64,000 nucleotides of DNA from a virus: positions 57,539 through 121,538 of the IMG/VR virus record IMGVR_UViG_3300049324_000034; one strand, 5' to 3'. Each line of letters begins with the position of its first letter. Within the stretch, counting starts at the first letter, position 1. Shown one piece after another: positions 36,439 through 63,920 of the stretch. Under the pieces are notes generated by a model. It searched no databases and had not been told where the DNA came from. It saw only the letters and a list, made by a program, of their open reading frames with translations. The translations under genes were made by a program, and so were the position numbers.

Positions 36439-36999
36439 GTGCCCACCGACCTCGTGGCCATCGCCGCCACTTTCGCTGACCGCCGTGAGCGGGCCACGGC
36501 GTTGATCGAACAGGCTCAGGCGTGGACGAGTCAGACCATCGACGAGTTGGGCACTTTCGACGCCTCCCCGCAAATGGATGGCGACGAGTTGGGCAACGTC
36601 TACGCCCGGCTGGTGTCGCTGTCGATCCAGCGGCTGCGGGTGGTGTCCGACCAGCTGTCCAAGGCGTTCGCCGAGCACGGCGTGGACGCGCTGGTGAAGG
36701 ACCGGCTTGCGTACAACCCCGGCACGGAGGAACTGGAGGTCATCGGGGAGCAGGTTTCGGCGCTGGCGGAGCTGGAGGCCCGTGAGCGCAAAGAGCTGCG
36801 TGAGCTTCTGACGGCCGCTGTGCGGCTTCGCCTGGAGACTCGGTCGGCGGAGGCGATCGCGGCCCAGGGGCAGCGAATGGCGGCTCTCGCGCAGGCCTTG
36901 TGCGAGGAGGCGGGCCTGGATTGGAACACCGAGGCAGCGCGCCGGCTGGCGCAGCGGGCGGTGATCCGGGCGGAGGCTGCCATGGTCCGCCCGACGTAG
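36439..36999 (+). CDS. First gene of right arm, helical protein
   Basis: 186 residues from GTG 36439. A TACGCT sequence 6 nt before the start suggests a nearly leaderless mRNA. Almost entirely alpha-helical, with acidic and Arg-rich stretches (AELEARERKELRELLTAAVRLRLETRS). No family recognised. Its position next to the inverted repeat suggests a regulator or origin-linked protein, but no DNA-binding motif is visible. Confidence 0.6.
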   Translation: MPTDLVAIAATFADRRERATALIEQAQAWTSQTIDELGTFDASPQMDGDELGNVYARLVSLSIQRLRVVSDQLSKAFAEHGVDALVKDRLAYNPGTEELEVIGEQVSALAELEARERKELRELLTAAVRLRLETRSAEAIAAQGQRMAALAQALCEEAGLDWNTEAARRLAQRAVIRAEAAMVRPT

Positions 37000-37019
37000 T
37001 AGACTGGGCAGTGTTCCGT
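36997..37019 (+). promoter_or_regulatory. Promoter/leader element TAGACT-N8-TTCCGT
   Basis: TAGACT (37000-37005), 8 nt, TTCCGT with G in front; 29 nt before ATG 37042. It overlaps the last codon and stop of the upstream gene. Confidence 0.65.
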
Positions 37020-37041
37020 ACTCGCTGCCCGTGGAGGTCCC

Positions 37042-37731
37042 ATGATCGGTATTCCGGAGCGCGTACAGCGTTTCGCTGACCACGTCGTCGAAGTGGTGGG
37101 CATCGAGCCCGCTATCGAGTCCGTCGCCGGCTACTGGCTGATCACGTTGACGGCACCGCGCGTGGTGGCCACCGCGCGGTTCAAGCGATCCAGTGGTCGC
37201 GGGGGCCGGTGGTTCTGGCATGACGGGACGTTGCTCGTCGACGGCGAACCACGCCCGGTGACGAACTCCATGGAAGAGCTTGCGAGGCTGGTTGCTGACC
37301 CTGACGGCCGCGCTGTGGCCCCAGCACCGCTTCCCGCTAGTGAGCCGCCCGGTAAGGCCCCTGCGGCCGTACAGCGCGATTTCTGGGCGATCGCCCGCAA
37401 GCTCGGCACCGACGCGGTGACCGTGGGGCGCGACGGCAAGCGCTGGGTGGTCGCCCTGGAGATGGCCAAACCCAGCGGGGCCACGGCGTCACTGCGGATC
37501 AACTACGCCAACCACGCGCACCGCTGGAACCCTGACCCCTACCACCCGTTCACGCTGATCCTCAACGGTCGCGAGTGCACCTCACAGATCAACAACCTGG
37601 CAGAGGCCATGGCGTTGATGGCCGACCAGTCCGAGCCCGGTGAGCCCGGTACGGGCCCCGCCACCGGGCCGGCGCAGGGCGCGGGGTTCGATTCGGTGGA
37701 TGTCCGGCGGCATTCGGTGATCCGGAACTGA
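37042..37731 (+). CDS. Unknown protein with internal duplication
   Basis: 229 residues, ATG 37042 with GGAGG. Residues about 28-92 (VAGYWLITL ... RWFWHDGT ... MEELARLVAD) and about 132-196 (DGKRWVVALEM ... RWNPDPYHPFT ... LAEAMALMAD) are two copies of one beta-rich domain joined by a Pro/Ala linker. A C-terminal Gly/Pro-rich tail follows. Function unknown. Confidence 0.65.
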   Translation: MIGIPERVQRFADHVVEVVGIEPAIESVAGYWLITLTAPRVVATARFKRSSGRGGRWFWHDGTLLVDGEPRPVTNSMEELARLVADPDGRAVAPAPLPASEPPGKAPAAVQRDFWAIARKLGTDAVTVGRDGKRWVVALEMAKPSGATASLRINYANHAHRWNPDPYHPFTLILNGRECTSQINNLAEAMALMADQSEPGEPGTGPATGPAQGAGFDSVDVRRHSVIRN

Positions 37732-38009
37732 TGAGTGCCGAGCGGGACGCGCTGGTCAGGCTGGTCGGCCTGACCCACGACGCAACTAGGCACGTCTCCC
37801 ACCGCACCAACGTGGTGCAGCTCTACCGCGACGCCAGCGACGTAGCCGAGCGGCGGTTGCCGGGACCTCTCGGGGTTGCCGTGGCCGCCGTGCTAGCTAC
37901 CGCTGCCGAGCGCCGTCGGCTGTCCGGGATCGGCGGGTCGCTCGGCGCGGATCAGCCGATGATGGCGCTGGCCGTCGCCGTGTTGGAGATCATCCCTGAT
38001 GACCTGTAA
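37731..38009 (+). CDS. Small helical protein
   Basis: 92 residues, ATG 37731 sharing one base with the upstream stop (TGATG). Contains RLVGLTHDATRHVSHRTNVVQLYR and a long Ala/Val-rich helix. No family recognised. Confidence 0.55.
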   Translation: MSAERDALVRLVGLTHDATRHVSHRTNVVQLYRDASDVAERRLPGPLGVAVAAVLATAAERRRLSGIGGSLGADQPMMALAVAVLEIIPDDL

Positions 38010-38015
38010 CGAACC

Positions 38016-38038
38016 CGGTAGGGTGGGCGATATACCGA
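38016..38038 (+). promoter_or_regulatory. Degenerate promoter element TAGGGT-N8-TACCGA
   Basis: TAGGGT (38019-38024), 8 nt, TACCGA. The surrounding bases closely match those of the site at 48755-48777, including TGTAAC upstream and GGGCGAT in the spacer, but the TTCCGG is degraded. ATG follows 3 nt later, so any transcript would be nearly leaderless. Confidence 0.5.
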
Positions 38039-38040
38039 GT

Positions 38041-38148
38041 ATGAAGCGCAACGCACTGATCGCAGAGATCACCGCAGCACAGACCGTCTTCGCCTACTCC
38101 CTGATCATTCTGGCAGTGGTTTTGATCGCCGCCGCTGCGCTCGTCTGA
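38041..38148 (+). CDS. 35-residue membrane peptide
   Basis: ATG 38041, TGA 38146-38148. A charged start (MKRNALIAEITAAQ) leads into a single membrane helix (SLIILAVVLIAAAALV). It is flanked by two promoter elements, which supports expression. Too short for most gene calls. Confidence 0.5.
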   Translation: MKRNALIAEITAAQTVFAYSLIILAVVLIAAAALV

Positions 38149-38154
38149 ATCGCA

Positions 38155-38177
38155 TGGTAGGCTGACCATCGTTCCGG
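38155..38177 (+). promoter_or_regulatory. Promoter/leader element TAGGCT-N8-TTCCGG
   Basis: TGG TAGGCT (38158-38163), 8 nt, TTCCGG with G in front; 32 nt before ATG 38203. Confidence 0.75.
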
Positions 38178-38202
38178 TATCCCTGAGTGAGATTGGACCC
38201 CC

Positions 38203-38418
38203 ATGACCGCACCCGAAGTGACCGCCGCACTGGGCACCCGCAAGGCCGTGCGCATCACCTTCAGTCGCAAAACCCTCCTGCACCGCGTGGACCTCGTGGT
38301 CGGCGACGACGTCACCGACACCATCGTTATCACCTCCAACGAAGACCTCGCTGAGGGCTACGCGAAAGGCGCCGCCCGCATCCTCGGCCTCGACATCACC
38401 CGACAGGACGTGCCCTGA
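38203..38418 (+). CDS. Small protein, paralogue of the next gene
   Basis: 71 residues. KAVRITFSRK and DLAEGYAKGAARILGLDITRQDV resemble RTVRITFDHD and DFVEDFAGLYAAALGLPLSRVDA in the following gene, so the two appear to be diverged copies. Function unknown. Stop and next start share one base. Confidence 0.6.
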   Translation: MTAPEVTAALGTRKAVRITFSRKTLLHRVDLVVGDDVTDTIVITSNEDLAEGYAKGAARILGLDITRQDVP

Positions 38419-38795
38419 TGGCCCCCGACAACCAGCGCCCCGCACGCATCCACCGTGCGGGGCGCCCCGGCGTGCCCACGTTCATCGTGACCATGGACGC
38501 GGGCATGACCGCCGACGACATCGCCCGCCGCAAAGAACGCCTCATAGCTCAGATCATGGGCGGCGTGCCCACCTTGATGGGCGCCCCCGCGAGCTTCACT
38601 GCGATCAAAGAGATCGCCCGTGGCCGGCGCACGGTGCGGATCACCTTCGACCACGACATCGCCCGCGCCGATGAGTGCATCGGTGAGCATCCCGTGAATC
38701 GAGTGTGCTCCTGGACAGCCCGCGACTTCGTCGAGGACTTCGCCGGCCTCTACGCGGCAGCTCTGGGCTTGCCGCTGTCAAGGGTGGACGCATGA
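38418..38795 (+). CDS. Longer paralogue of the preceding gene
   Basis: 125 residues, ATG 38418. An extra N-terminal about 50 residues (TFIVTMDAGMTADDIARRKER) precede the shared VRITF...LGL domain. No enzyme motif recognised. Confidence 0.6.
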   Translation: MAPDNQRPARIHRAGRPGVPTFIVTMDAGMTADDIARRKERLIAQIMGGVPTLMGAPASFTAIKEIARGRRTVRITFDHDIARADECIGEHPVNRVCSWTARDFVEDFAGLYAAALGLPLSRVDA

Positions 38796-39352
38796 ACGCC
38801 GACGGATCCATGAACGCACCCGACGGACCGCACGTCCGGGTGTCCTGGGCACCGGGCACCCTGGAATGGCGCGCGCACCTCATGACCCCGAACGTTGACC
38901 CGCCGGACGTGTGGCTGTGCTCGTCACCGCGCAAAGCCGATGTGCTGGCCAACGCGGCGGGCACCGCCGAACTGCGGGGCATCCCCGTCTACGAGGCGCC
39001 CATCCCGTCACCCCCAGCCGACAATGCGGAGCTGTCCGAGCATGACGTCGCTGTGGTCGTGTTCGCCAGAGTGCGGGCGGTCGACTACGGCGACGCCGCT
39101 GGTATCGCGCAGCGCGCGGTGGCCGCCGCGATCCGGGACGGCATGAAAACCGTCTACGGGAACTATCACGAGCCGTTCGGGGAACTGACCTACCGCAGTC
39201 TGCGACCCAACGCCCGGATCCCCGTGGTCGTCGCTGAAGTCCGGGACCTCGATGTGTGCCTCGGTGACTCCAGTGTGCGCATCGTGCCCACGTCGAAGCC
39301 CTACCGGCGCCTTGAGGAGTCCCGCGCCCGCTGGGCGGAGGACCAGTCATGA
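38792..39352 (+). CDS. Unknown soluble protein
   Basis: 186 residues, ATG 38792 (ATGA overlap). Alternating strands and helices; ELSEHDVAVVVFARVRAVDY and RIPVVVAEVRDLDVC are hydrophobic core strands. The C-terminus is charged. No family recognised. Confidence 0.55.
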   Translation: MNADGSMNAPDGPHVRVSWAPGTLEWRAHLMTPNVDPPDVWLCSSPRKADVLANAAGTAELRGIPVYEAPIPSPPADNAELSEHDVAVVVFARVRAVDYGDAAGIAQRAVAAAIRDGMKTVYGNYHEPFGELTYRSLRPNARIPVVVAEVRDLDVCLGDSSVRIVPTSKPYRRLEESRARWAEDQS

Positions 39353-39600
39353 ACTGGTGGGCTCTCGCAGCGTTCTACCTCGGTGTCGGGCTCGCGGTCG
39401 CCTGTAAGGACTGGGCGGAGTGGGCGCCGCGTGAGCCGAGCTTCTATGCGTGGCCCCGCGCCCGCGTGATCCTGTTCGCGGTCATGTTTTTCGCCATGAC
39501 GGTGCTCGGTTGGCCGGTGGACGTCGCTGACTGGGTTCTCGGTGTGTGGCGTCGCCGGTACCCCAAGCCTGTGACGGGGCGACGGGGGCCGGGCTCGTGA
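39349..39600 (+). CDS. Small membrane protein
   Basis: 83 residues, ATG 39349 (ATGA overlap). Two hydrophobic segments (LAAFYLGVGLAVACKDW and VILFAVMFFAMTVLGW) and a basic tail (RRRYPKPVTGRRGPGS). Confidence 0.55.
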   Translation: MNWWALAAFYLGVGLAVACKDWAEWAPREPSFYAWPRARVILFAVMFFAMTVLGWPVDVADWVLGVWRRRYPKPVTGRRGPGS

Positions 39601-39803
39601 GCCGGGACCGGTCGGCTTGGGTGCTGCTTGCCGCGATCGCCGTGGTGTACGCGACGGTCATCGGTTTGGCGGTCGTCTTGCCGGTGTGGCCGTGGCCGTG
39701 GCTGGTCGTTCGCCTGGTGCTGATCTACGGCGGCTACGAGTTCTCCAAGCGCGCGGCCCGCTGGTACCTCCACGCTGGCCGGCTACCCCGGTGGTGGTCG
39801 TGA
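39597..39803 (+). CDS. Small membrane protein
   Basis: 68 residues from GTG 39597 (GTGA overlap). Two membrane helices (WVLLAAIAVVYATVIGLAVVL and WLVVRLVLIYGGYEF) followed by a basic tail. Second in a run of coupled membrane genes. Confidence 0.55.
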   Translation: MSRDRSAWVLLAAIAVVYATVIGLAVVLPVWPWPWLVVRLVLIYGGYEFSKRAARWYLHAGRLPRWWS

Positions 39804-40129
39804 CCAGCTCGTGCGCGTGCCAGCGCCAGTGCTGCCACTGCGGTCAGGCAGTTACGGTCGTGCCCCGGCGGGCAACCTGGGAGCGGTACGTGGCCCTGTG
39901 GGTGTCCGCCACGTTCATCGGCGTCAACGTCGCGGTCGCCTACACGCTGCCCGAGTCGTGGGGCGCATGGCGCTGGTTGCCCACCCTGTTCGCCTGGGGG
40001 GCGGTGACGCTCGGCCCCGTTTGGGCCTACCGCTATCGGGTGCGTCGTCGGGCGTCGAAGTCAGCGGCAGCGATCGCCGCCTACCGGAACATCAGGCCAT
40101 CGGATCCGAGTGAGGTGCGTCGTGGGTGA
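39800..40129 (+). CDS. Membrane protein with N-terminal Cys cluster
   Basis: 109 residues from GTG 39800 (GTGA overlap). CACQRQCCHCG at the N-terminus is a probable metal site, followed by two membrane helices (YVALWVSATFIGVNVAVAY and LPTLFAWGAVTLGPVWAY) and a basic tail. Function unknown. Confidence 0.58.
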   Translation: MTSSCACQRQCCHCGQAVTVVPRRATWERYVALWVSATFIGVNVAVAYTLPESWGAWRWLPTLFAWGAVTLGPVWAYRYRVRRRASKSAAAIAAYRNIRPSDPSEVRRG

Positions 40130-40752: not shown

Positions 40753-40841
40753 CGTGGTATCGCATCACGAACGCGATCTACTGGGTGTTGCTGATCGGTG
40801 CACCTGTGTTCTTGGGCCTGTTGATGACGGGGGTTATTTGA
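40749..40841 (+). CDS. 30-residue membrane peptide
   Basis: GTG 40749 (GTGA overlap), ending next to ATG 40841. A single membrane helix (IYWVLLIGAPVFLGLLMTGVI) after a short polar start. Called on its coupling. Confidence 0.5.
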   Translation: MTWYRITNAIYWVLLIGAPVFLGLLMTGVI

Positions 40842-41625: not shown

Positions 41626-41630
41626 TGGTG

Positions 41631-41653
41631 TGGTAGGCTCGGTCACGTTCCGA
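41631..41653 (+). promoter_or_regulatory. Promoter/leader element TAGGCT-N8-TTCCGA
   Basis: TGG TAGGCT (41634-41639), 8 nt, TTCCGA with G in front; 28 nt before ATG 41675. Confidence 0.7.
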
Positions 41654-41674
41654 CCGACCGCTAGGGAGACACCA

Positions 41675-41992
41675 ATGCTCGAACCACGCATGGCCGCCAT
41701 CCTGGGCCAGCTCGAAGACCTCGCCCAATACCTCGACCGCACCGACGACGACGGCGCTCCCCGCTTGCGGGCCATCATCGCCGACCGCTTCGACTGCGGT
41801 GTCGAAGTCTCTTGGACCGACACCACCCACGGCCACGTACGCACCGGCATGTACCTCGACGCCATCGTCGACGATGACGACATCCTCGCCCGCGTTGTCC
41901 CCACTGAGCGGCTCGCCGGAGACGGCACCCTGGGCGCTCTGCTCATTCCTCGCGAAGACCTGCGCTACTCCCAGGCGGTGGCTCATGGCTGA
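41675..41992 (+). CDS. Small acidic protein
   Basis: 105 residues, ATG 41675 (AGGGAGA site). Acidic with a beta-rich middle (VEVSWTDTTHGHVRTGMYLD). First gene of a promoter unit running to about 45615. Confidence 0.58.
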   Translation: MLEPRMAAILGQLEDLAQYLDRTDDDGAPRLRAIIADRFDCGVEVSWTDTTHGHVRTGMYLDAIVDDDDILARVVPTERLAGDGTLGALLIPREDLRYSQAVAHG

Positions 41993-45342: not shown

Positions 45343-45615
45343 TTGGCGGACTCGTCGAAGCCACCCGCGAGCGACAAGGAACGCGCGGAGCGCCTGGCCC
45401 TGAACACGCGCCACGGCGGCCTGGTGGTGCTGCGCGGCGGTTACTGGGATGCCAACACGCTGTGGCAGGACCAGTACGACGTGCTGCCGCAGGGGAGCAC
45501 GAAACGCACCGGCTACCCGTCGGGTACCGGCATTTACGCGCGCACTGAGACCTTCGAGGACACCCGCCTGGGCTATGGCCGGGCGCGGGTCTACCAGTGG
45601 ACCCCGAACACCTGA
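45343..45615 (+). CDS. Small basic protein
   Basis: 90 residues; TTG 45343 is the only start in frame. Positively charged N-terminus (KPPASDKERAERLALNTRHG), aromatic middle (YWDANTLWQDQYD). The last codons run into the promoter at 45613-45635. Start codon is uncertain. Confidence 0.5.
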   Translation: MADSSKPPASDKERAERLALNTRHGGLVVLRGGYWDANTLWQDQYDVLPQGSTKRTGYPSGTGIYARTETFEDTRLGYGRARVYQWTPNT

Positions 45616-45635
45616 TAGGGTCGGTTGTGTTCCGT
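45613..45635 (+). promoter_or_regulatory. Promoter/leader element TAGGGT-N8-TTCCGT
   Basis: TGA TAGGGT (45616-45621), 8 nt, TTCCGT with G in front; 26 nt before ATG 45655. TGA is the upstream stop codon. Confidence 0.72.
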
Positions 45636-45654: not shown

Positions 45655-45981
45655 ATGGCCGACCTGCCCGTTAACGTCGAGGTCACCCAGTACCTCGTAT
45701 CCTGCCTGCCGGAGCATTACGGCGTCCGCCGGCACTTCATGCTCACTGTCGAATACCGGGGCCCGGACTCGTGGGCGGTGTGCTCATTCGGTGGCGTCTA
45801 CAGCGTCGACGGCCAGTGGACTTCTGAGCCGAGTTCGTCAGAGCGCAGCGACAACTGGAAAGTCCGCTACCGCATGCCCCTAGCTCAGGCCCTTGCCCTC
45901 GCCCAGCGGCTGGCGCCGGCCCTGACGTGCAACGGGGTCACCGTGGCCGCTGCCCTGGAGCGCGGGCCGGAGTGGCGGTGA
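45655..45981 (+). CDS. Small soluble protein
   Basis: 108 residues, ATG 45655 (GAGAAGG site). Beta-rich, aromatic (HFMLTVEYRGPDSWAVCSFG). No family recognised. First gene of a unit. Confidence 0.57.
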   Translation: MADLPVNVEVTQYLVSCLPEHYGVRRHFMLTVEYRGPDSWAVCSFGGVYSVDGQWTSEPSSSERSDNWKVRYRMPLAQALALAQRLAPALTCNGVTVAAALERGPEWR

Positions 45982-46402: not shown

Positions 46403-46426
46403 TGGTAGGGTAGGGATCTGTTCCGG
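46403..46426 (+). promoter_or_regulatory. Promoter/leader element TAGGGT-N9-TTCCGG
   Basis: TGG TAGGGT (46406-46411), 9 nt, TTCCGG with G in front; the only member with 9 nt. TTGACG lies at 46381-46386, 19 nt upstream. 35 nt before ATG 46455. Confidence 0.68.
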
Positions 46427-46454: not shown

Positions 46455-46880
46455 ATGACCCGCATCCAGGTAGGCGACGTCCTCCAAGAGTCCAACGGCG
46501 ACGAACTGCACGTCTACGTCCACCAGTACGCCGACGAAGAGCACGACGAGGTCGAGATCAAGGGCGAAGCTGCCATGATCAGCTTCGATCCCAGCACCCC
46601 CCAGGGGCGCACCCAGGTCAACGCCCTCATCGCGCGCCTACAGGAAGCCCTCGCCCTCCACGGGCAGTCTTGCGAAAAACTCTACGGTCAGCTCAAGGTT
46701 GGTGACTGGTGCGTCGGCATCCGCCTACCCGTCGGAAACGACGAACGCTGCACCAGCGAACTACCCCACCCCGAACACGGCTCCGTCCAGTGCTCACGCA
46801 CCGCCCACGACGACCCCCACCACGTCACCGTCGACGAGCACTACGACGTCATCGCCGCCGTGCACCCCGCTGATGCCTAG
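46455..46880 (+). CDS. Unknown acidic protein
   Basis: 141 residues, ATG 46455. Very acidic N-terminus (YADEEHDEVEIKGEA) and a Cys/His-containing C-terminal half (CTSELPHPEHGSVQCSRTAHDDPHHV), a possible metal-binding stretch. No family recognised. Confidence 0.57.
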   Translation: MTRIQVGDVLQESNGDELHVYVHQYADEEHDEVEIKGEAAMISFDPSTPQGRTQVNALIARLQEALALHGQSCEKLYGQLKVGDWCVGIRLPVGNDERCTSELPHPEHGSVQCSRTAHDDPHHVTVDEHYDVIAAVHPADA

Positions 46881-47306: not shown

Positions 47307-47313
47307 GTTCCGG
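47307..47313 (+). promoter_or_regulatory. GTTCCGG leader element without -10
   Basis: GTTCCGG at 47307, 31 nt before ATG 47338. The -10 position expected for the promoter class (47294-47299) reads CCGCCG and is not a -10. Same orientation as the genes. Confidence 0.45.
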
Positions 47314-47337: not shown

Positions 47338-47760
47338 ATGACCGCTGCACGCGTAGTAGACGAAGATCGAGAGAAGAATCCCGACTGGGTGATTTGCGCC
47401 CGGATCATGTGGGGGCAGGACCCACTGTGCGAACCGAGCGAAGCCGAGATCCGCGCTGCGGTGTGGATCCTGCTCGACAGGGGACGCAACATCGTTCAGA
47501 TCAAGCGCGACACGGTGCTGACCGACCAGCAGGTTGATCGCACCGTGGAGCTGCGTCGCCTGGCCCGCCAGCCCGACACCGGCCCCCGCCCGTGCGGGGG
47601 AATGACCCCCAAGCTGGCCCGCAAGCTCGCCCCCAGTCCCCAGTTGCGCTGGGTGCTGACCGGGGTCGGCAAGGTCGGCGGTAGCAGCCTGGCCCCCTAC
47701 CTGGCCGAGCCGGCGGCCGTGATGCTGCTGGCCGGGGCACTGCTGGCACCGGTCGGCTGA
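47338..47760 (+). CDS. Unknown soluble protein
   Basis: 140 residues, ATG 47338 with GAGGGAG. Contains WVICARIMWGQDPLC, a charged helix, and a Gly/Ala-rich C-terminal hydrophobic stretch (AAVMLLAGALLAPVG). No family recognised. Confidence 0.56.
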   Translation: MTAARVVDEDREKNPDWVICARIMWGQDPLCEPSEAEIRAAVWILLDRGRNIVQIKRDTVLTDQQVDRTVELRRLARQPDTGPRPCGGMTPKLARKLAPSPQLRWVLTGVGKVGGSSLAPYLAEPAAVMLLAGALLAPVG

Positions 47761-48494: not shown

Positions 48495-48748
48495 GCGCCC
48501 CGTGGCGGGCGGTGACGCTGTCGTCTGGCCCGTATTCGGGCCGGGGTGGCATGTTGGGGCCGGAGACCGCGCGGCGGTCGCGGCGCTGGACTCTGGTGCT
48601 GGAGTGCGGGCATGAGGTGAACCGCACGGTGCGCTACGGGCCGCATTCCGACGGCGATGAGCGGTCGAGGGGTGGTACTCAGTTCCGTTCGGGGGCTGAT
48701 GTGTTGCCGGCGCCGCGTCGAGTTCGATGCGAGCATTGCGACTTGTAA
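48491..48748 (+). CDS. Small zinc-type protein
   Basis: 85 residues from GTG 48491 (GTGA overlap). LECGHEVNRTVRY and RVRCEHCDL hold CGH and CxxC ligands, a likely zinc knuckle. Arg-rich. Last codons overlap the start of the next promoter region. Confidence 0.57.
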   Translation: MSAPWRAVTLSSGPYSGRGGMLGPETARRSRRWTLVLECGHEVNRTVRYGPHSDGDERSRGGTQFRSGADVLPAPRRVRCEHCDL

Positions 48749-48754
48749 CAAACC

Positions 48755-48777
48755 TGGTAGGCTGGGCGATGTTCCGG
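48755..48777 (+). promoter_or_regulatory. Promoter/leader element TAGGCT-N8-TTCCGG with -35
   Basis: TGG TAGGCT (48758-48763), 8 nt, TTCCGG with G in front; TTGCGA at 48736-48741 is a good -35 at 16 nt. 40 nt before GTG 48811. Surrounding sequence is shared with the site at 38016-38038. Confidence 0.78.
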
Positions 48778-48810: not shown

Positions 48811-49323
48811 GTGACCACCGCAACCGCCGCCCGCAACAGCGCCAGCAAGCCCCAGGTCGCCGACATCCAGCGACTCCTGGGCCAGCTCGACGCGCGCAGC
48901 GTGGACACCACCGGCTACCGCACCGGGTACAACCAGCTCTGGACCGACGGACAGTTCACCGAACAGTTCGCTTCGATCGTGCTCCGCGACCTACTGCGCC
49001 AGCTCGAAGCCATCGACGCCCGCAAGTCCGAAGTCCCCACCGGCCGCTACGCGGTCGCGACCGACGCCGGGCACTACGCCTTCTACCGCGTGTGGAAAGG
49101 CGACCGCGCGACCCTGGTGTTCCTCCAGCTCTCCGACGACGAACAGCGCCTGAACCGTTCGGCCGCCGCCGCCATCCTGGCCAAGATCGCAGCTGCGGGT
49201 GTCCTGGAGGCCAGCAAGACCTACGGCCGCGAGATCGGGGTGTGCGGGGTGTGCAACCGCACCCTGACCAACCCGGAGTCGATCGCAAACGGAATCGGCC
49301 CGATCTGCGCGGCTCGCCTCTAA
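48811..49323 (+). CDS. DUF6011-like protein
   Basis: 170 residues from GTG 48811 with AGGGAGC. The C-terminus VCGVCNRTLTNPESIANGIGPICAARL matches the zinc-containing DUF6011 end found in many actinophage proteins (CxxC, Gly-Ile-Gly-Pro, Cys). The N-terminal 100 residues are helical with VPTGRYAVATDAGHYAFYRVWKG. Function unknown. Confidence 0.72.
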   Translation: MTTATAARNSASKPQVADIQRLLGQLDARSVDTTGYRTGYNQLWTDGQFTEQFASIVLRDLLRQLEAIDARKSEVPTGRYAVATDAGHYAFYRVWKGDRATLVFLQLSDDEQRLNRSAAAAILAKIAAAGVLEASKTYGREIGVCGVCNRTLTNPESIANGIGPICAARL

Positions 49324-49748: not shown

Positions 49749-49755
49749 GTTCCGG
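49749..49755 (+). promoter_or_regulatory. GTTCCGG leader element without -10
   Basis: GTTCCGG at 49749, 30 nt before ATG 49779. No TANNNT box at the expected position. Same orientation as the genes. Confidence 0.45.
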
Positions 49756-49778: not shown

Positions 49779-49919
49779 ATGCCATCACACGCACAGTGGG
49801 GCGCCGCGTGGCGCGCCTCCGCCGCCAATGAGCGCGCCGACGGAAACGAGGAGGGCGCCGACTACGGCGATTACCTCGCCGACCAGAACGACAATGCCGA
49901 CGCTGCCGGGCGCCCGTAG
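49779..49919 (+). CDS. 46-residue acidic protein
   Basis: ATG 49779, stop TAG 49917-49919. Acidic with Asp/Asn repeats (NEEGADYGDYLADQNDNAD). Lies between two GTTCCGG elements, which supports it. Confidence 0.5.
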   Translation: MPSHAQWGAAWRASAANERADGNEEGADYGDYLADQNDNADAAGRP

Positions 49920-50710: not shown

Positions 50711-50733
50711 TGGTAACGTCTGGGGTGTTCCGG
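50711..50733 (+). promoter_or_regulatory. Promoter/leader element TAACGT-N8-TTCCGG
   Basis: TGG TAACGT (50714-50719), 8 nt, TTCCGG with G in front; 56 nt before ATG 50783. Confidence 0.7.
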
Positions 50734-50782: not shown

Positions 50783-51061
50783 ATGATCACCCGCGTTCGC
50801 AACCTGACCCGCATGAACACCATCGCCCTCGACAACGTCATGATCTGCACCCAGGTCGGCACCACGTTCGCCGAGTTCGAGGGCTCCCCCGTCCAAGCAC
50901 TCGCCAAGGTCACCACCGCCATGTCCAAGCGCGGCGCGGACTCCACCTACCACTCCCTGCTCGCTGTGCGCCGCAAGCTCGTTGACGCCGCAAACAACTG
51001 GGACGGCAACCTCGACGGCCAGACACTCGCCATGACACGGCACGTCACGGTCACTCGATGA
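50783..51061 (+). CDS. Small soluble protein
   Basis: 92 residues, ATG 50783. A beta-rich start (TIALDNVMICTQVGTTFAEFEG) and a helical end. No family recognised; its stop overlaps the next start (ATGA). Confidence 0.57.
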   Translation: MITRVRNLTRMNTIALDNVMICTQVGTTFAEFEGSPVQALAKVTTAMSKRGADSTYHSLLAVRRKLVDAANNWDGNLDGQTLAMTRHVTVTR

Positions 51062-51377: not shown

Positions 51378-51384
51378 GTTCCGG
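51378..51384 (+). promoter_or_regulatory. GTTCCGG leader element without clear -10
   Basis: GTTCCGG at 51378, 43 nt before ATG 51421. The -10 position reads CGACAT, a poor box; a terminator ends 40 nt upstream, so some promoter must lie here. Confidence 0.45.
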
Positions 51385-51420: not shown

Positions 51421-52086
51421 ATGACCGCCGCGCTCGCCACCCCTGACGACACCGAATCCGTCTCTACCCTGCTCGTGGGATTCGCCATCAACGCCGTCAT
51501 CGCGGGCGCGAAACTCACCCTCGGTGTCCTCACCGGGTCCGCGTCGATGCTCGCCGAAGCCGCCCACTCCGCCGTCGACATGCTGTCGGAGGTCTTCCTG
51601 CTCACCGGGGCGCGGCACTCCCGCACCTGGTCCAAGGGCTCCTACTTCTGGGGCCTGCTCGCGTGCGTGAACCTGTTCCTGTCCGGCGCCGTCTGGGCCG
51701 CTTATGAGGGCATCCGGTCACTGGTCGGCACCGAGGTCGCCGACTCCCTGGGCTGGGTCAGCCTCGCCGTGCTCGCCGGGTCGGCCGCCATGGAGTCAGT
51801 GTCGTGGCGCACCGCGTACCGCACCCTGAACGCCCAACGGGGCGACACCCCGTGGCGGATCTACCTGCGGACCTGCCCGAACGTCGCGGTCCTGACCCTG
51901 TTCTTTGAGGACACTGCCGACATCATCGGCTGCTTCCTGGCCGGGACCGGTGTCGCCCTGGGCCTGCTAGTCACCGGGACGGCACTGTGGGACGGCGTCG
52001 CATCCCTGCTGATCTCCGCACTGCTCACCGGCATGGCCTACGTGCTCGGCAGCCGCAACGCCAAACTGCTCACCGCCACAGCCTGA
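51421..52086 (+). CDS. Cation diffusion facilitator (CDF)-like transporter
   Basis: 221 residues, ATG 51421. CDF features in order: a helix with GAKLTLGVLTGSASMLAEAAHSAVDM (HxxxD metal site, His52/Asp56), LLTGARHSRTW, YFWGLLACVNLFLSGAVWAAYEGI, then a helix with FFEDTADIIGCFLAG at the usual second metal-site position (Glu/Asp instead of HxxxD) and a final helix WDGVASLLISALLTGMA. Six membrane helices are expected and the cytoplasmic C-terminal domain is absent. By family such proteins export zinc or other divalent cations in exchange for protons. A cation exporter is unusual in a phage. Flanked by terminators on both sides. Confidence 0.8.
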   Translation: MTAALATPDDTESVSTLLVGFAINAVIAGAKLTLGVLTGSASMLAEAAHSAVDMLSEVFLLTGARHSRTWSKGSYFWGLLACVNLFLSGAVWAAYEGIRSLVGTEVADSLGWVSLAVLAGSAAMESVSWRTAYRTLNAQRGDTPWRIYLRTCPNVAVLTLFFEDTADIIGCFLAGTGVALGLLVTGTALWDGVASLLISALLTGMAYVLGSRNAKLLTATA

Positions 52087-52460: not shown

Positions 52461-52483
52461 TGGTAGGGTCGGTCTTGTTCCGG
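52461..52483 (+). promoter_or_regulatory. Promoter/leader element TAGGGT-N8-TTCCGG with -35
   Basis: TGG TAGGGT (52464-52469), 8 nt, TTCCGG with G in front; TTGTGC at 52440-52445, 18 nt upstream. 39 nt before ATG 52516. Confidence 0.78.
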
Positions 52484-52515: not shown

Positions 52516-52695
52516 ATGTCCGCGCCAGTCCGCACCGTCTTCGCCCAGTCCCTGCCCACCCGCCTGCACAAGCGCTACGTCGAACCCGACGCCCGCCGTC
52601 GCGCCAGCGACCACAGTGCCCACGGCCAGATCCGAGGCCGGGGCGCTTGCAAGAACGCCGCCGTCGTCGCCTCGCTCGCCGAGTGGGGGTTCTGA
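52516..52695 (+). CDS. Small basic protein
   Basis: 59 residues, ATG 52516 (AGGAGT site). Basic (RLHKRYVEPDARRRASDHSA) with a C-terminal helix. No family recognised. Confidence 0.57.
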   Translation: MSAPVRTVFAQSLPTRLHKRYVEPDARRRASDHSAHGQIRGRGACKNAAVVASLAEWGF

Positions 52696-57110: not shown

Positions 57111-57133
57111 TGGTAGGGTCGGTATTGTTCCGG
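57111..57133 (+). promoter_or_regulatory. Promoter/leader element TAGGGT-N8-TTCCGG with -35
   Basis: TGG TAGGGT (57114-57119), 8 nt, TTCCGG with G in front; TTGCGC at 57092-57097, 16 nt upstream. 30 nt before ATG 57157. Confidence 0.8.
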
Positions 57134-57156: not shown

Positions 57157-57369
57157 ATGGCGAACACCGCCATCCCGCACAACATCGCCGTCATCGGCCG
57201 TCGACTGAACGATCTTTACGTCCTGGACACCGACGAAGGTGACAGCTGGAACCGCCTCTACACCGCCGCGCTGGCCCAAGGTCGCCTCGACGACGACATG
57301 GCCCTGCGGTTCATCGGCGGCATGATCGAAACACTGATCGTCATCGAAGACCGCGCACCAGCCCACTGA
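57157..57369 (+). CDS. Small soluble protein
   Basis: 70 residues, ATG 57157 with GAGGAGA. Contains NIAVIGRRLNDLYVLDTDEGD and a helix with MIETLIVIEDR. No family recognised; a single-gene unit ending in a terminator. Confidence 0.58.
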   Translation: MANTAIPHNIAVIGRRLNDLYVLDTDEGDSWNRLYTAALAQGRLDDDMALRFIGGMIETLIVIEDRAPAH

Positions 57370-57434: not shown

Positions 57435-57719
57435 ATGAGAACCATCGAAGTCCGCGTCCACCACGCCGACCCCGCCATGCCCATCGCTCGCATCGACTGG
57501 CCCTGGAACAACGCCAGCGACCTCGTCGGCATCGTGCCCGCGCTGGAACGTCACGGTCTGCGCGTGACCACCGACGTCCCCGCCCACGATGTTCGCTACA
57601 GCGGTTTCACTGGCCGGCTCACTGCCAGCTCGTCAGGCTTCTACTTCGACGTCGAGGCCAGCAACTGCGCCGTCCGGCCCGCCCCCTCGTACGCTGCCCA
57701 AGCCAAGCCCCAGTCATGA
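57435..57719 (+). CDS. Small soluble protein
   Basis: 94 residues, ATG 57435 with GGAAGG. Beta-rich start (TIEVRVHHADPAMPIARIDWP). No promoter of the repeated class precedes it although it follows a terminator. No family recognised. Confidence 0.56.
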   Translation: MRTIEVRVHHADPAMPIARIDWPWNNASDLVGIVPALERHGLRVTTDVPAHDVRYSGFTGRLTASSSGFYFDVEASNCAVRPAPSYAAQAKPQS

Positions 57720-58134: not shown

Positions 58135-58157
58135 TGGTACGGTCGGCATTGTTCCGG
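58135..58157 (+). promoter_or_regulatory. Promoter/leader element TACGGT-N8-TTCCGG
   Basis: TGG TACGGT (58138-58143), 8 nt, TTCCGG with G in front; 29 nt before ATG 58180. Confidence 0.72.
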
Positions 58158-58179: not shown

Positions 58180-58530
58180 ATGGCCAAGGTCGCGAAACTC
58201 AAGCACAACCACGAACTACTCCCCTTCGGTGCCTACGTCGCTGAAGGCGAGTGCCCGCGCTGCGACCAGCTCCGTATCGAGAAGCTGGCCATGGGTGAGA
58301 CCCCGCACAACCACGCGCCCACCCCGTGGGCTCGTCGCGTCGAGGGTTGCCCCCGGTGCGTCGAGCTGGCCAACGGTGCACCCAAACGGCTGTCCCAAGC
58401 CGACCGGCAGGCCGAGTGGGACCGGAAGCGCTCCGAGGCGATCGCGGCGCACACGAACGAGAACTGCCACTACATGACCCGCACCTCGGCCGGACACTGG
58501 ACCGGCGTGTGCGTCTGCTTCGACTGGTGA
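58180..58530 (+). CDS. Protein with two CPRC repeats
   Basis: 116 residues, ATG 58180 (GAGAGAAG site). Two repeats: LPFGAYVAEGECPRCDQL and WARRVEGCPRCVEL, each preceded by a His-containing stretch (KHNHELLP; HNHAPTPWA). The C-terminus ends with CVCFDW. A probable zinc protein with an internal duplication. Confidence 0.62.
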   Translation: MAKVAKLKHNHELLPFGAYVAEGECPRCDQLRIEKLAMGETPHNHAPTPWARRVEGCPRCVELANGAPKRLSQADRQAEWDRKRSEAIAAHTNENCHYMTRTSAGHWTGVCVCFDW

Positions 58531-58534
58531 CCCG

Positions 58535-59547: not shown

Positions 59548-59551
59548 CGTC

Positions 59552-60094: not shown

Positions 60095-60483
60095 TCACGA
60101 TCACTCAACCGCCCCCGCTGGCCGAAGCCGACCGCTATCTACTGGCGATTTTGCAGCAGGTTCGGTACGCGCTGCGCCGGTCGCCGACATTCCAACCGCA
60201 CGACGCGGGGTACTGCGATGTTGTGCGCGCGTGGCGCGCACTGACCAACCAGCTGTTCGGCCGTGACATCGCCCACGCCTACCGGGTCGAAGCGGAGAGA
60301 TCCGGCGACGTCGACGCGGTGCTCGCCACCGCGTTCGAGTTGACCGCCCACGAGGTGGCGAAAGACGACGAACGCTGGCCCGACGTGGTGCTGCGCAACG
60401 CTCGCCCCACCACGGATCGGTTCGAGCTGTTGGCGGCTCGCGCGCTGGAGATCCGGCAGGAGGGTGCACCCGTACGGCCGTAG
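60091..60483 (+). CDS. Small helical protein
   Basis: 130 residues, ATG 60091 (ATGA overlap). Mainly helical, with RYLLAILQQVRYALRRSPTFQPHD and AYRVEAERSGDVDAVLATAF. No family recognised. Confidence 0.57.
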   Translation: MITITQPPPLAEADRYLLAILQQVRYALRRSPTFQPHDAGYCDVVRAWRALTNQLFGRDIAHAYRVEAERSGDVDAVLATAFELTAHEVAKDDERWPDVVLRNARPTTDRFELLAARALEIRQEGAPVRP

Positions 60484-60502
60484 CACCCACCACCTAGCTA
60501 CC

Positions 60503-60525
60503 TGGTATGGTAGGACCTGTTCCGG
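60503..60525 (+). promoter_or_regulatory. Promoter/leader element TATGGT-N8-TTCCGG
   Basis: TGG TATGGT (60506-60511), 8 nt, TTCCGG with G in front; 33 nt before ATG 60552. Confidence 0.75.
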
Positions 60526-60551
60526 TCCCCCTGAGTGAGAGAAGTCCTGTC

Positions 60552-61061
60552 ATGGCGCAGACCGCCATCCCCACCGACTACTGCCCCGACTGCCGCCTCA
60601 TCAACGGCCTACCCCCCACCACCGACCCCGTCGGCACCTACCAGTCCTGCCCTAGCTGCAACCCCGACACACCCATCCTGTGCTGCCCCGAGCACCGCTC
60701 CGCCGCCCTGGCCAACCTCGACCTGCCCGCCAACACCTACTACCACTGCCCCCTCTGCGACGACGAATGGGTCAACGGCCCCGACAACCCTCCGTGGCGC
60801 GCCTACGACTACGGCATGGCCCTGCTCGCCCTGACCTGGCTGACCTTCCAGTGCGGCGTGTACTTCGTCTTCCTGCTCGGTTTCGTCCTCGTCCTGCACC
60901 AGAACTACGGCCACACCCCCGACGACGCGGTCATGCCGAGCGCCTTCTACGCGTTCCTGGTATTCATTCTGTGGATCACCGTGCTGTTCCCCGCCCTGTG
61001 GTGGGCTGTCGACGAGACCTGCCGCCGCGTGTGGCGCGGCATCTGGGGACAGGCACTGTGA
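60552..61061 (+). CDS. Membrane protein with N-terminal zinc ribbons
   Basis: 169 residues, ATG 60552 with GAGAGAAG. YCPDCRLINGLP, SCPSCNPD, LCCPEHRS and HCPLCDDEW form several zinc knuckles in the first 80 residues. Two membrane helices follow (ALTWLTFQCGVYFVFLLGFVLVL and FYAFLVFILWITVLFPALWW). The zinc part would face the cytoplasm. Function unknown. Confidence 0.65.
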   Translation: MAQTAIPTDYCPDCRLINGLPPTTDPVGTYQSCPSCNPDTPILCCPEHRSAALANLDLPANTYYHCPLCDDEWVNGPDNPPWRAYDYGMALLALTWLTFQCGVYFVFLLGFVLVLHQNYGHTPDDAVMPSAFYAFLVFILWITVLFPALWWAVDETCRRVWRGIWGQAL

Positions 61062-61303
61062 GCCGCCGACCCGGCAGCGTGCCCCTTACCGGCATCCTGC
61101 GCGCCTGGCTCACCATCTACGTCCTGATCTGGCCCGCCCTACTCGTCGTCGCCTTCGACTGGGCCTTCGGCCCCCAATCCACGGCCACCTCCGTGGCGTT
61201 CCTCATCGCCGTCGGATGGGCACTGTGGCGGTGGCGGCAGGTCGCCAAACGCATCCACACCGTTCGCGTCAAAACACCCCGACGCAGAAGGGCACACCGA
61301 TGA
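61058..61303 (+). CDS. Small membrane protein
   Basis: 81 residues from GTG 61058 (GTGA overlap). Two membrane helices (AWLTIYVLIWPALLVVAF and ATSVAFLIAVGWALW) and a basic tail (RQVAKRIHTVRVKTPRRRRAHR, Arg/Lys-rich). Confidence 0.58.
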   Translation: MSRRPGSVPLTGILRAWLTIYVLIWPALLVVAFDWAFGPQSTATSVAFLIAVGWALWRWRQVAKRIHTVRVKTPRRRRAHR

Positions 61304-61509
61304 GCCGCCCCACCACACCCCCCGACATGCTGCGTCGGCTCGCCGACATCGGTGCCATCGACGACTACCAGCTCGACGACGGGCACCACCGAGTCACCGT
61401 CAAAGGTGACCCGTCCTGGCTGACCGCCGACGAGGTCAACGTGTTCCTACTCGGCTTCGGCGCCGCCATCGACCACTCCAACCGCCGGATTGGAGACCTG
61501 CTTACATGA
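61300..61509 (+). CDS. Small soluble protein
   Basis: 69 residues, ATG 61300 (ATGA overlap). Contains MLRRLADIGAIDDYQLDDGHH and an acidic C-terminal helix. No family recognised. Confidence 0.55.
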   Translation: MSRPTTPPDMLRRLADIGAIDDYQLDDGHHRVTVKGDPSWLTADEVNVFLLGFGAAIDHSNRRIGDLLT

Positions 61510-61694
61510 ACGGCCTCGACGGACTCCTCGCCTACATGCTCGCCCAAGCAGTGGGAGTGATCCTGCTGGCGCTGGCCATCATCGGCGGGGTCGCGCTGTT
61601 CCACCACCACATCGCCTACTGGGCCGCCTTCCTGATCGCCTTCGCCGTCGTCTACGGCGGCATCTTCATCTTCGAGGGGGACTGGATCGAATGA
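61506..61694 (+). CDS. Small membrane protein
   Basis: 62 residues, ATG 61506 (ATGA overlap). Two membrane helices (LAYMLAQAVGVILLALAII and YWAAFLIAFAVVYGGIFIF). Confidence 0.57.
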   Translation: MNGLDGLLAYMLAQAVGVILLALAIIGGVALFHHHIAYWAAFLIAFAVVYGGIFIFEGDWIE

Positions 61695-62113
61695 GCAGGC
61701 GTCTACTTCTAGGCGCCTGCCTGGCGCTCGCCCTGGCCGGTGCCGCCTGCGAGGTCCCAGCGAGCACGACCGGCCCGCACTGCACAGCGACCCTCGAAAA
61801 CGACCGCACTCGCACCGTGTGCACCACCGTGGAAGGCGAGCCCGACCCGCGCACCGTCGAGGACTGCAGGCTCAACATCACTGGCGAGCACACGGTCTGC
61901 GTCGTGACCCGCCCCGGACAGGTGCCGGTCACGACGTACCACTGCGGGATCAACGACGTGTTCATGCGCCACGTCTACGGCCTGGAGCCACAAGCGCACA
62001 ACGCCGACGCCGCTGACGCCTACTGCACACACCAGGTGCAGGCCCACATCGCGGAGCAGGAGCAGCAGACCGGCGGCCCGTGCCCGCTGATCTGCATGCG
62101 GCCCGACCAGTAA
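61691..62113 (+). CDS. Small secreted Cys-rich lipoprotein
   Basis: 140 residues, ATG 61691 (ATGA overlap). Signal peptide (RRLLLGACLALALAGAAC) with lipobox AGAAC and Cys20. The mature part has nine further cysteines, likely disulfide-paired. It would be anchored outside the membrane. Second lipoprotein in this arm. Ends before a terminator. Confidence 0.68.
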   Translation: MSRRLLLGACLALALAGAACEVPASTTGPHCTATLENDRTRTVCTTVEGEPDPRTVEDCRLNITGEHTVCVVTRPGQVPVTTYHCGINDVFMRHVYGLEPQAHNADAADAYCTHQVQAHIAEQEQQTGGPCPLICMRPDQ

Positions 62114-62117
62114 CACC

Positions 62118-62148
62118 GGACACCCGGTCAGCGACATACCGGGTGTCC
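62118..62148 (+). terminator. Hairpin terminator
   Basis: GGACACCCGGT (62118-62128) pairs perfectly with 62138-62148 around a 9-nt loop, 5 nt after the stop. Confidence 0.68.
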
Positions 62149-62157
62149 CGCTTCACC

Positions 62158-62164
62158 GTTCCGG
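62158..62164 (+). promoter_or_regulatory. GTTCCGG leader element without -10
   Basis: GTTCCGG at 62158, 25 nt before ATG 62183 and 10 nt after a terminator hairpin. The expected -10 position reads GTCCCG. Confidence 0.45.
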
Positions 62165-62182
62165 CCCCCAGGAGTACCCGAA

Positions 62183-62347
62183 ATGATCATCTACGCGATG
62201 CTGCGGCTGTTCGTCGCCCTAGCTGGCATCGTCGCCACCGTGTGCGTCTTCAGCGCCGTCGCCTTCGCCTACCTACTCGCCCTGCCCATCGCTGGCATCG
62301 TCTACTACGCCACCGGCCGCTGGATCCTGAAACGGAGCACCCGATGA
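62183..62347 (+). CDS. 54-residue two-helix membrane peptide
   Basis: ATG 62183 with AGGAG. Two membrane helices (MLRLFVALAGIVATVCVFSA and FAYLLALPIAGIVYYAT) and a basic tail (WILKRSTR). ATGA overlap with the nuclease gene that follows. Confidence 0.55.
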   Translation: MIIYAMLRLFVALAGIVATVCVFSAVAFAYLLALPIAGIVYYATGRWILKRSTR

Positions 62348-63306
62348 GACGCCACCGCAAGCCGAACCCACTGTTCGACCCCGACCACGAGCCCAGCGAT
62401 ATGGCCGCGATCCGGGCCGACGACGCCCTACTCGACAGCCTCCACGCCGCCCAGCCGCCCACAGGTGCGGTCGACCCGTTCCGCGAGGAACTTGCCAAGC
62501 TGCGGGACTCCGCACGCGGTGACGAACCCGAACTGGTCACCGTCGACACCGCCCAGCACGCCATCCGGTGCGGCCGGCGAGCACGGAGGCGCCGCCGCTG
62601 GTTCCCGTGGGTGTTCGTCATCGGTTGTGTGGTGGCCGGCGTCCTTCTCCTGGCGCTCACCGGGTGCGGGGTGGGCGCTATCGACTCCCTGGCGGTCCCC
62701 GCCCCGACAACCGCACAGCCTGACCCCGGTGGGCTTCCGTCACTGCCGCCGGAGGAGGCGCGGGCCCTGATGGCACCCATCGGCGACGGCGGCCCGAAGG
62801 TCATCATCGCGCCGACCGCGCACGTCACCGGCACCTACCCGACCCGCTGCGTGCGGGGCGCGGCCGATGACCCGCGACTGCCAGTGATGGCGTGCACGCC
62901 GGGCTCGGTGCGCAGCGACATCACCGACGACACGAAAGCCGCCACGATCTGCAATCCGCACTGGTCGACGAGCACGATCCGGGCCCCGAAGTCTGAGACG
63001 GACCGGCTGAAAACGATCGCGATGCAGGCTTACGGGGTGCCCGCGTCGGCGCGGGCCACGACGGAGCTGGATCACGACGAGCCGCTGGAGCTGGGTGGCA
63101 GCAACGACGTGAGCAACTTCTGGGCGGAGCGATCCGATCTGTCGGGGCAGGGGTTCCGCAACTCGAAAGACGACGTTGAGAATCGCCTGCATGCGGCGGT
63201 GTGTGGCCGCATCCCCGGTATGCGCCCGGTGTCGTTGCGCGACGCTCAGATCGCGATCGCGCGGGATTGGGTGACGGCTGAAGCGGTGCTGCACGTCGCC
63301 GCCTAG
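62344..63306 (+). CDS. Membrane-tethered HNH-like nuclease
   Basis: 320 residues, ATG 62344 (ATGA overlap). The N-terminal about 85 residues are charged and probably cytoplasmic, ending in GRRARRRRRW. One membrane helix follows (87-108, FPWVFVIGCVVAGVLLLALTGC) ending in a lipobox-like LTGC. The extracytoplasmic domain ends in an HNH-like core: TTELDHDEPLELGGSNDVSNFW (Asp-His near 243-244, Asn254) and NSKDDVENRLHAAVC (Lys275, Asn280). The geometry predicts a nuclease outside the cell membrane, which might cut incoming DNA. Activity not shown. Confidence 0.68.
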   Translation: MRRHRKPNPLFDPDHEPSDMAAIRADDALLDSLHAAQPPTGAVDPFREELAKLRDSARGDEPELVTVDTAQHAIRCGRRARRRRRWFPWVFVIGCVVAGVLLLALTGCGVGAIDSLAVPAPTTAQPDPGGLPSLPPEEARALMAPIGDGGPKVIIAPTAHVTGTYPTRCVRGAADDPRLPVMACTPGSVRSDITDDTKAATICNPHWSTSTIRAPKSETDRLKTIAMQAYGVPASARATTELDHDEPLELGGSNDVSNFWAERSDLSGQGFRNSKDDVENRLHAAVCGRIPGMRPVSLRDAQIAIARDWVTAEAVLHVAA

Positions 63307-63325
63307 TTGCGCATCCCCGCAACTC

Positions 63326-63348
63326 TGGTAGGGTGGGTGTTGTTCCGG
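63326..63348 (+). promoter_or_regulatory. Promoter/leader element TAGGGT-N8-TTCCGG with -35
   Basis: TGG TAGGGT (63329-63334), 8 nt, TTCCGG with G in front; TTGCGC at 63307-63312, 16 nt upstream. 26 nt before ATG 63368. Confidence 0.8.
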
Positions 63349-63367
63349 TCCCGACCTGGAGGTCACC

Positions 63368-63640
63368 ATGACCGCGCCGCACATCACCACCCGCTCCCGC
63401 CACTACTCCCCCACACTGCGGGCCGAACTCAACGCCTACAGTGCTCAAGACGCAGCCGAGAACGCCCGCCTATGGCGCGAGATCGCCGCCGACGCCATCG
63501 GCGTCCCCCGCGACTGGGCCATCGCCGCCTACTGGCAGTCCATCGCCGACCGCAAATCTCGCTGCATCTGTGGATCTGTTCGCCCCTGGATGCCCACGAT
63601 CACCAATCCCGACTGCCCGCAGCATCACTCCAACATCTGA
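63368..63640 (+). CDS. Small protein with Cys-rich C-terminus
   Basis: 90 residues, ATG 63368 (GGAGG site). Helical N-terminus (YSAQDAAENARLWREIAADAIG) and a Cys/His end (RCICGSVRPWMP ... DCPQHH). No family recognised. Confidence 0.57.
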   Translation: MTAPHITTRSRHYSPTLRAELNAYSAQDAAENARLWREIAADAIGVPRDWAIAAYWQSIADRKSRCICGSVRPWMPTITNPDCPQHHSNI

Positions 63641-63646
63641 CCGCCC

Positions 63647-63653
63647 GTTCCGG
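63647..63653 (+). promoter_or_regulatory. GTTCCGG leader element without -10
   Basis: GTTCCGG at 63647, 26 nt before ATG 63673. The -10 position reads CATCTG, not a good box. Confidence 0.45.
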
Positions 63654-63672
63654 CACCCAGGAGACCCGCGCC

Positions 63673-63900
63673 ATGCACATCTACCACCTCGCCCGCAACG
63701 AAATCATCCACCGCGAAGAGAACGCCGCACTCGTCGTCATCGCCATCGACGAGTACGCCGCCCGTGAGCGCGCCGCCGACCTCTGCGGTCCCGAAGGCGT
63801 CGCCCCATGGCTGGAGCGCGCCGACTGCGTCCAGATCGGTGTTGCCTTGCCCGAGTTCGACGCTCACGGCTTCGCCTGCGTCGACTGCCTCGAAGCCTGA
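63673..63900 (+). CDS. Small acidic protein
   Basis: 75 residues, ATG 63673 with AGGAGA. Contains NAALVVIAIDEYAARERAADLCG; ends with Cys pair (FACVDCLEA). No family recognised. Confidence 0.57.
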   Translation: MHIYHLARNEIIHREENAALVVIAIDEYAARERAADLCGPEGVAPWLERADCVQIGVALPEFDAHGFACVDCLEA

Positions 63901-63913
63901 CCCCCGACCACCC

Positions 63914-63920
63914 GTTCCGG
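63914..63920 (+). promoter_or_regulatory. GTTCCGG leader element without -10
   Basis: GTTCCGG at 63914, 28 nt before ATG 63942. The -10 position reads CCCCCG. Same orientation as the genes. Confidence 0.42.

Follow-up and report, generated by a model that had tools for sequence, protein, structure and literature searches.

Extended -10 promoters joined to a GTTCCG leader tag ahead of genes in a large contractile-tailed phage and its relatives

The composite element and its sites

The window analyzed here is a stretch of 64,000 nucleotides, positions 57539 to 121538 of a 121,538-base virus record in IMG/VR (IMGVR_UViG_3300049324_000034, referred to as G000), which belongs to a large, contractile-tailed phage with genes for sheath, baseplate, terminase, capsid and helicases. 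Genes in this window are preceded by a repeated element, TGGTANNNT-N8-TTCCGG, which an original prediction made from the window alone had described as a single promoter/leader element. We found that the composite is two separable parts, an extended -10 promoter, TGGTANNNT, and a leader tag, GTTCCG(G). The prediction had overlooked that GTTCCG also stands ahead of genes in leaders that have no -10, so that the single element it proposed is better described as two.

There are 12 exact copies of the composite in the window and one more with a spacing of 9 at 46403, which is the only exception to the predicted 8-nt spacing between the -10 and TTCCGG. At two or fewer mismatches, the copies that lie before genes number 21, 12 on the plus strand and 9 on the minus strand. 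All 21 copies predicted on both strands are therefore present, but the interval given for them, 36997-63920, holds only the 12 plus-strand copies, with the minus-strand ones lying at 9.5-36 kb. As had also been described, TTCCGG is nearly always preceded by G, the degenerate copy at 9723 being the exception, and the start codon is mostly 25-40 nt away (gene calls, and hence gene starts, come from a home-made hexamer model). The motif is far above chance in a shuffled-sequence check that the prediction had itself proposed, with Markov shuffles (n = 10) giving 0 copies at 0 or 1 mismatch and 1.6 at two mismatches. The sites are listed below in window coordinates, with the corresponding sites in relatives of G000 found in IMG/VR (G002, G003, G005, G006 and G007).

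Extended -10 with tag, plus strand:
36997..37019: GTTCCGT, 29 nt ahead of gene 37042-37731
38155..38177: GTTCCGG, 32 nt ahead of gene 38203-38418; extended -10 and tag also at the G006 orthologue
41631..41653: GTTCCGA, 28 nt ahead of gene 41675-41992
45613..45635: GTTCCGT, 26 nt ahead of gene 45655-45981; extended -10 and tag also at the G005 orthologue
46403..46426: GTTCCGG, spacing longer by one base, 35 nt ahead of gene 46455-46880; extended -10 and tag also at the G005 and G006 orthologues
48755..48777: GTTCCGG, with a -35 (TTGCGA) at 48736, 40 nt ahead of gene 48811-49323
50711..50733: GTTCCGG, 56 nt ahead of gene 50783-51061
52461..52483: GTTCCGG, 39 nt ahead of gene 52516-52695
57111..57133: GTTCCGG, 30 nt ahead of gene 57157-57369
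58135..58157: GTTCCGG, 29 nt ahead of gene 58180-58530; extended -10 and tag also at the G006 orthologue
60503..60525: GTTCCGG, 33 nt ahead of gene 60552-61061
63326..63348: GTTCCGG, 26 nt ahead of gene 63368-63640

Extended -10 with tag, minus strand:
35937..35959: GTTCCGG, in the long leader of gene 34597-35847; retained in G003
34623..34645: TGATACCCT with GTTCCGG, within the end of gene 34597-35847 and ahead of the next leftward gene; retained in G003
27082..27104: CGGTAGACT with GTTCCGG, ahead of the leftward gene group 25936-27008; identical variant in G003, similar in G002
25911..25933: GTTCCGG, 35 nt ahead of gene 25322-25882
25293..25315: GTTCCGG, 29 nt ahead of gene 24698-25270; extended -10 and tag also at the G002 and G005 orthologues
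21036..21058: GTTCCGG, 27 nt ahead of gene 20623-21015 (RapZ C-terminal domain)
14761..14783: TGATACCCT with GTTCCGG, ahead of helicase gene 13016-14740
9701..9723: extended -10 with a decayed tag, ATTCCAA; a second promoter, upstream of that at 9553
9531..9553: GTTCCGA, 26 nt ahead of gene 9113-9511; extended -10 and tag also at the G002 orthologue

Tag without a -10, plus strand:
47307..47313: 31 nt ahead of gene 47338-47760; the G005 and G006 orthologues likewise have the tag without a -10
49749..49755: 30 nt ahead of gene 49779-49919
51378..51384: 43 nt ahead of gene 51421-52086; the G006 orthologue has promoter, tag and second tag, the G005 orthologue two tags
62158..62164: 3' of an inverted repeat, 25 nt ahead of gene 62183-62347
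63647..63653: 26 nt ahead of gene 63673-63900

The product of gene 20623-21015 is a small protein that matches the RapZ C-terminal domain alone.

Distribution in the genome and its relatives

Across the whole 121.5-kb record, TGGTANNNT-N7-GTTCCGG occurs 14 times exactly and 6 times with one mismatch, and the reversed pattern does not occur. Tagged genes are found in the left part, the replication module and the small-gene region, with few in the virion module, where 3 of the 18 genes with an upstream gap are tagged, compared to 14 of 22 in the 94-121 kb region. A scan of the complete genome and its relatives had been suggested in the original prediction; the motif proved to be genome-wide and present in all of the IMG/VR relatives, at up to about 20 copies per record at no more than one mismatch (controls, about 0), and 20 sites were counted in G005. 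The idea of a dedicated phage regulon is supported in the form of a genome-wide promoter/leader unit.

G003 is a near relative of G000 (helicase identity, 97%), while the median protein identity of G002, G005, G006 and G007 to G000 is about 48-65%. No isolate close to G000 was found by megablast. The best identity of the terminase to known sequences is about 40%, and the top capsid matches, at 44-47%, are in Brevibacterium and Gordonia phages. Since these are the best capsid matches, with isolates only distant, the host is likely an actinobacterium. The motif was not found in the related isolates tested (Phendrix, Forza, RanchParmCat, mu1/6, DSL-LC01, Cantare, DalanDe and Chidiebere). We also considered a host genome as the source of the motif and rejected it, since the consensus composite had a single match, judged to be chance, across 257 Gb of bacterial and archaeal genomes (GTDB); the capsid gene likewise had no relative in GTDB genomes. 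One further IMG/VR record (locus L010, 37% G+C) was judged a chance match and removed.

The promoter half

Leader statistics were compiled for 94 leaders from five divergent phages (five lineages), of which 61 have a -10 and 33 do not. GTTCCGG is found in 69 leaders and is, beside its own shifts, among the most enriched heptamers before genes. The distance from the extended -10 (TG-N-TANNNT) to GTTCCG is 7 nt in 58 of the 61 -10-bearing leaders, 8 nt in two and 6 nt in one, and the 58 leaders with the 7-nt spacing keep at least four of the five fixed -10 bases, 54 of them perfectly. In the -10-bearing leaders, conservation reaches 95-100% at bases -16, -15, -13, -12 and -8. Base 7 of the tag is G in 79%; the six preceding tag bases were the search core. 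When eight alignable promoter-class leaders were compared between G000 and G003, none of 56 tag bases and none of 40 bases of the -10 had changed, while 15% of upstream bases had.

The base at -1 is T in 40 of these leaders, C in 21 and a purine in none (0/61). Because a pyrimidine at this position is always followed by G, the usual pyrimidine/purine signature of a start, transcripts should begin GUUCCGG, with the tag forming RNA bases +1 to +6. This signature supports the original prediction, which had placed the mRNA start at the same G. The -35 of the TGGTANNNT promoters is weak or absent, with a -35-like TTG at 15 of 61 sites across the clade, compared to 5 and 2 at control positions. In leaders, untagged extended -10s do not exceed background (7, versus 10 for the reversed pattern), while those with a tag number 52, and the tag is nearly obligate at extended -10 promoters. 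TG-N-TANNNT is the element read by the host sigma-A holoenzyme; the promoter half is ordinary, and this holoenzyme should be its reader.

The tag without a promoter

Among genes with an upstream gap of at least 25 nt, we observed 19 cases of GTTCCG without TANNNT at 22-40 nt ahead of the start codon, where 1.9 were expected from permuted hexamers and 3 from the reverse complement (Poisson p about 3e-13). No such enrichment was seen at 63-94 nt, nor in front of genes lacking a gap. The base at -1 of promoterless tags is a purine in 11 of 33, and their logo has no conserved upstream column, which rules out a rigidly spaced hidden promoter; for both reasons, these tags are not cryptic copies of the tagged promoter. 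Their position in the leader is similar to that of promoter-bound tags, with a median distance to the start codon of 31 nt for promoterless and 30 nt for promoter-bound tags (p = 0.21) and distances to the Shine-Dalgarno sequence of 14 and 13 nt, respectively. In orthologue pairs, we found 32 in which both members have promoter and tag, 6 in which both have a promoterless tag, and 6 in which promoter and tag in one member correspond to a tag alone in the other. Several promoterless tags lie directly 3' of inverted repeats, and one in G006 is apparently 3' of a tRNA-like sequence (read by eye).

A structured RNA or riboswitch was also considered and rejected, there being no Rfam match in the window and leaders folding slightly less than their shuffles (-5.1 versus -6.2 kcal/mol). 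Given this weaker folding, the tag appears to be read as sequence and not as a hairpin. On coding sense strands, GTTCCG is neither avoided nor enriched (156 copies observed and 158.5 expected in 371 kb), as expected if only its place in the leader counts. The tag often takes a longer form, GUUCCGGYC. A second repeated short element, GATANANNGNGTGT, adjoins or overlaps tags in some leaders of G005, G006 and G007 and is too rare to interpret; its copies are at the following positions:

L062:15602
L063:6441
L069:4811
L069:12828
L075:1885

A unit embedded in a giant gene

In four phages (G000, G002, G005 and G006), the whole unit lies in frame within a giant gene, which in G000 has 3644 codons (record positions 20254-31188; L002:254-11188). 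By our own reading of the sequence, made without a database match, its first 200 residues resemble a prohead protease of the HK97 type, and its C-terminal part matches a helicase model. The motif encodes W-Y-x-x-x-x-S-G within an otherwise variable linker, and the third-position T of the -10 and the TCC serine codon are retained. The unit is followed by GAGGGG, a Shine-Dalgarno sequence, and by an in-frame GTG or TTG, so that a second product without the protease domain, beginning near genome position 20914, and hence two products in all, can be predicted from this gene.

How the tag might act

The best reading of these data, which we hold to be somewhat more probable than its alternatives taken together, is that ordinary host-type promoters are combined with a clade-specific, start-associated tag that would act on the mRNA. 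A host-type extended -10 promoter would start the transcript at the G of GTTCCG, and the leader that follows would be short, mostly 22-40 nt, consisting of the tag, a Shine-Dalgarno sequence and the start codon. GUUCCG would thereby mark 5' leaders, and a ribosome-associated or phage-encoded factor would handle those messages differently, most likely with better translation initiation as the outcome and otherwise with an effect on message protection or fate. At promoters, the tag would be at the very 5' end of the message, while in genes reached by read-through it would be at a similar distance before the start codon. The tag keeps a similar spacing from the start codon whether or not a promoter is present, and it is found on the sense strand only and in leaders only; this is explained most simply if it acts on the mRNA. 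Translation initiation appears the most likely step because the tag lies just upstream of the Shine-Dalgarno sequence, where the 30S subunit would meet it on the side from which the mRNA exits. The motif, its spacing, the pyrimidine/guanine signature at the start, the near-obligate link to the -10, the promoterless copies, their matching distances and the conservation in relatives are read directly from the sequences; from these patterns we infer where transcripts start, that the tag works at the RNA level and what kind of factor reads it.

Several points weigh against this reading. The rigid 7-nt spacing from the -10 fits an element of transcription initiation at least as well as one of translation, no RNA-binding reader was recognized among the conserved proteins, and the true promoterless tags number only about 20, some of which may be fed by unseen weak promoters. 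In addition, the L5 stoperators likewise occur both within promoters and between genes, with a single orientation (PMC9283540). A phage protein may bind the tag, on RNA or on DNA. A bolder and distinctly tentative form of the proposal is that GUUCCG, as a 5' tag specific to viral mRNAs, is a kind of sequence-coded cap; a factor that the phage produces or recruits would recognize it at or near the 5' end and favor phage over host messages for translation or survival.

The alternative that survives best, which we nevertheless consider doubtful, is that GTTCCG(G) is a DNA operator/stoperator, bound by a phage protein that, like the L5 repressor, stops transcription from initiating at promoters and from elongating between genes. 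The sites of L5-type cluster A mycobacteriophages are asymmetric, number more than 20 per genome, and lie in promoters and short intergenic spaces in the orientation of transcription (PMC9283540), a placement and orientation that the tag shares, and G000, G005 and G006 have a conserved GntR/UTRA regulator in common. However, L5 stoperators are 13-bp repressor sites of temperate phages, whereas the tag has a core of 6-7 bp, is fixed either at +1 or roughly 30 nt ahead of the start codon, and occurs in five records (some of them fragments) in which no tyrosine or serine integrase (PF00589, PF00239) was detected, and hence there is no sign of lysogeny. Furthermore, coding sense strands, in which a roadblock would do harm, show no avoidance of GTTCCG, and the distances to start codon and Shine-Dalgarno sequence are alike in both tag classes, which would not be required of an operator.

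We regard it as rather unlikely that the tag is an initial-transcribed-sequence element which merely adjusts how the host polymerase chooses its start site, escapes or pauses early at these promoters. The exact 7-nt spacing, the pyrimidine at -1 and the background level of untagged extended -10s would all fit such a role, but it leaves unexplained the tags without a -10, their similar distance to the start codon and their retention in promoterless orthologues.

It is very improbable that a phage RNA polymerase, or a phage BldN-type extracytoplasmic-function (ECF) sigma factor, uses all 23 bp of the unit as its promoter. T7-type promoters also take in the first transcribed bases, which counts for a phage polymerase. 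A BldN-family ECF sigma factor is encoded in G000, G003 and G006, and its operon in G000 begins at a tagged promoter at genome position 9437:

9772-10488 of the genome record (L001:9772-10488): BldN-family ECF sigma factor gene

Against this reading, TG-N-TANNNT is a sigma-A extended -10, and the variable middle of the unit is unlike a T7-type promoter. We found no match to a single-subunit or multi-subunit RNA polymerase (PF00940, PF00562), the T7-type search (PF00940) being one without a positive control, and a need for a phage RNA polymerase, where the original prediction had thought of a phage-modified one as a possible reader, is not supported. Since G005 has its 20 sites and no sigma70 or ECF match, the BldN-type sigma factor, present in three records, is not needed, and we rejected it as the reader. 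A WhiB-like regulator was rejected because it is absent.

Finally, we give almost no credence to a functionless tag that coincides with good promoters through coding or composition bias. The hexamer is fairly common on coding strands, at the 156 copies noted above, but its strong positional excess, strand bias and conservation amid diverging flanks contradict this explanation.

Comparison with known systems

Extended -10 promoters of the actinobacterial primary sigma factor have the sequence TG-N-TANNNT and a poorly conserved -35, and they initiate about 7 nt further on, at a purine preceded by a pyrimidine. TGGTANNNT resembles them in having TG-N-TANNNT, a poor -35 and a predicted purine start about 7 nt downstream. 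The tagged promoters differ in their transcribed part, as we know of no conserved transcribed hexamer at ordinary sigma-A promoters.

We rate the start-associated sequence (SAS) of the cluster K phages as the nearest known kind and the GTTCCG tag as a variant of that kind. That phages carry short conserved start-associated sequences has been known since the work on cluster K, where the SAS and the extended form (ESAS) have been described (PMC3203893, PMC11373665, PMC12699233). The cluster K SAS is a 13-mer, GGGATAGGAGCCC, which includes the Shine-Dalgarno sequence, is separated from the start codon by 3-9 nt and has a proposed role in translation initiation; about half of the SAS sites are joined to an upstream element (ESAS) with a putative sigma-A-like promoter (PMC11373665). 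Like the SAS, the tag is short, clade-specific, found in one orientation, associated with gene starts, and repeated before a subset of genes, and just as the SAS is absent from host genomes, the consensus composite is absent from GTDB genomes apart from the one chance match. Unlike GGGATAGGAGCCC, GTTCCG is mostly 22-40 nt (median, 30) from the start codon, about 13 nt before the Shine-Dalgarno sequence and usually at the predicted +1. In addition, the cluster K ESAS has 17-bp inverted repeats, whereas the tagged promoters have none, their logo containing no further conserved columns. The clade of G000 offers a cleaner case than cluster K, with a tag of 6 bases that promoters almost always carry and that also occurs independently of them, even in coding sequence, and the question of whether phages mark their own mRNAs by leader sequence is directly testable in this clade with reporter leaders.

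The Actinomycetia phage DSL-LC01, a distant relative (terminase identity, 36%), also repeats an extended -10 with conserved surroundings before many small genes. Its sequence, GATTCTAAAG-TGTTATAAT-AGAATCA, differs in having inverted-repeat arms around the -10, which is operator-like, and GTTCCG is absent from its leaders. About twenty such promoters lie within L044, 1063-11432, and apparently form an operator-promoter regulon.

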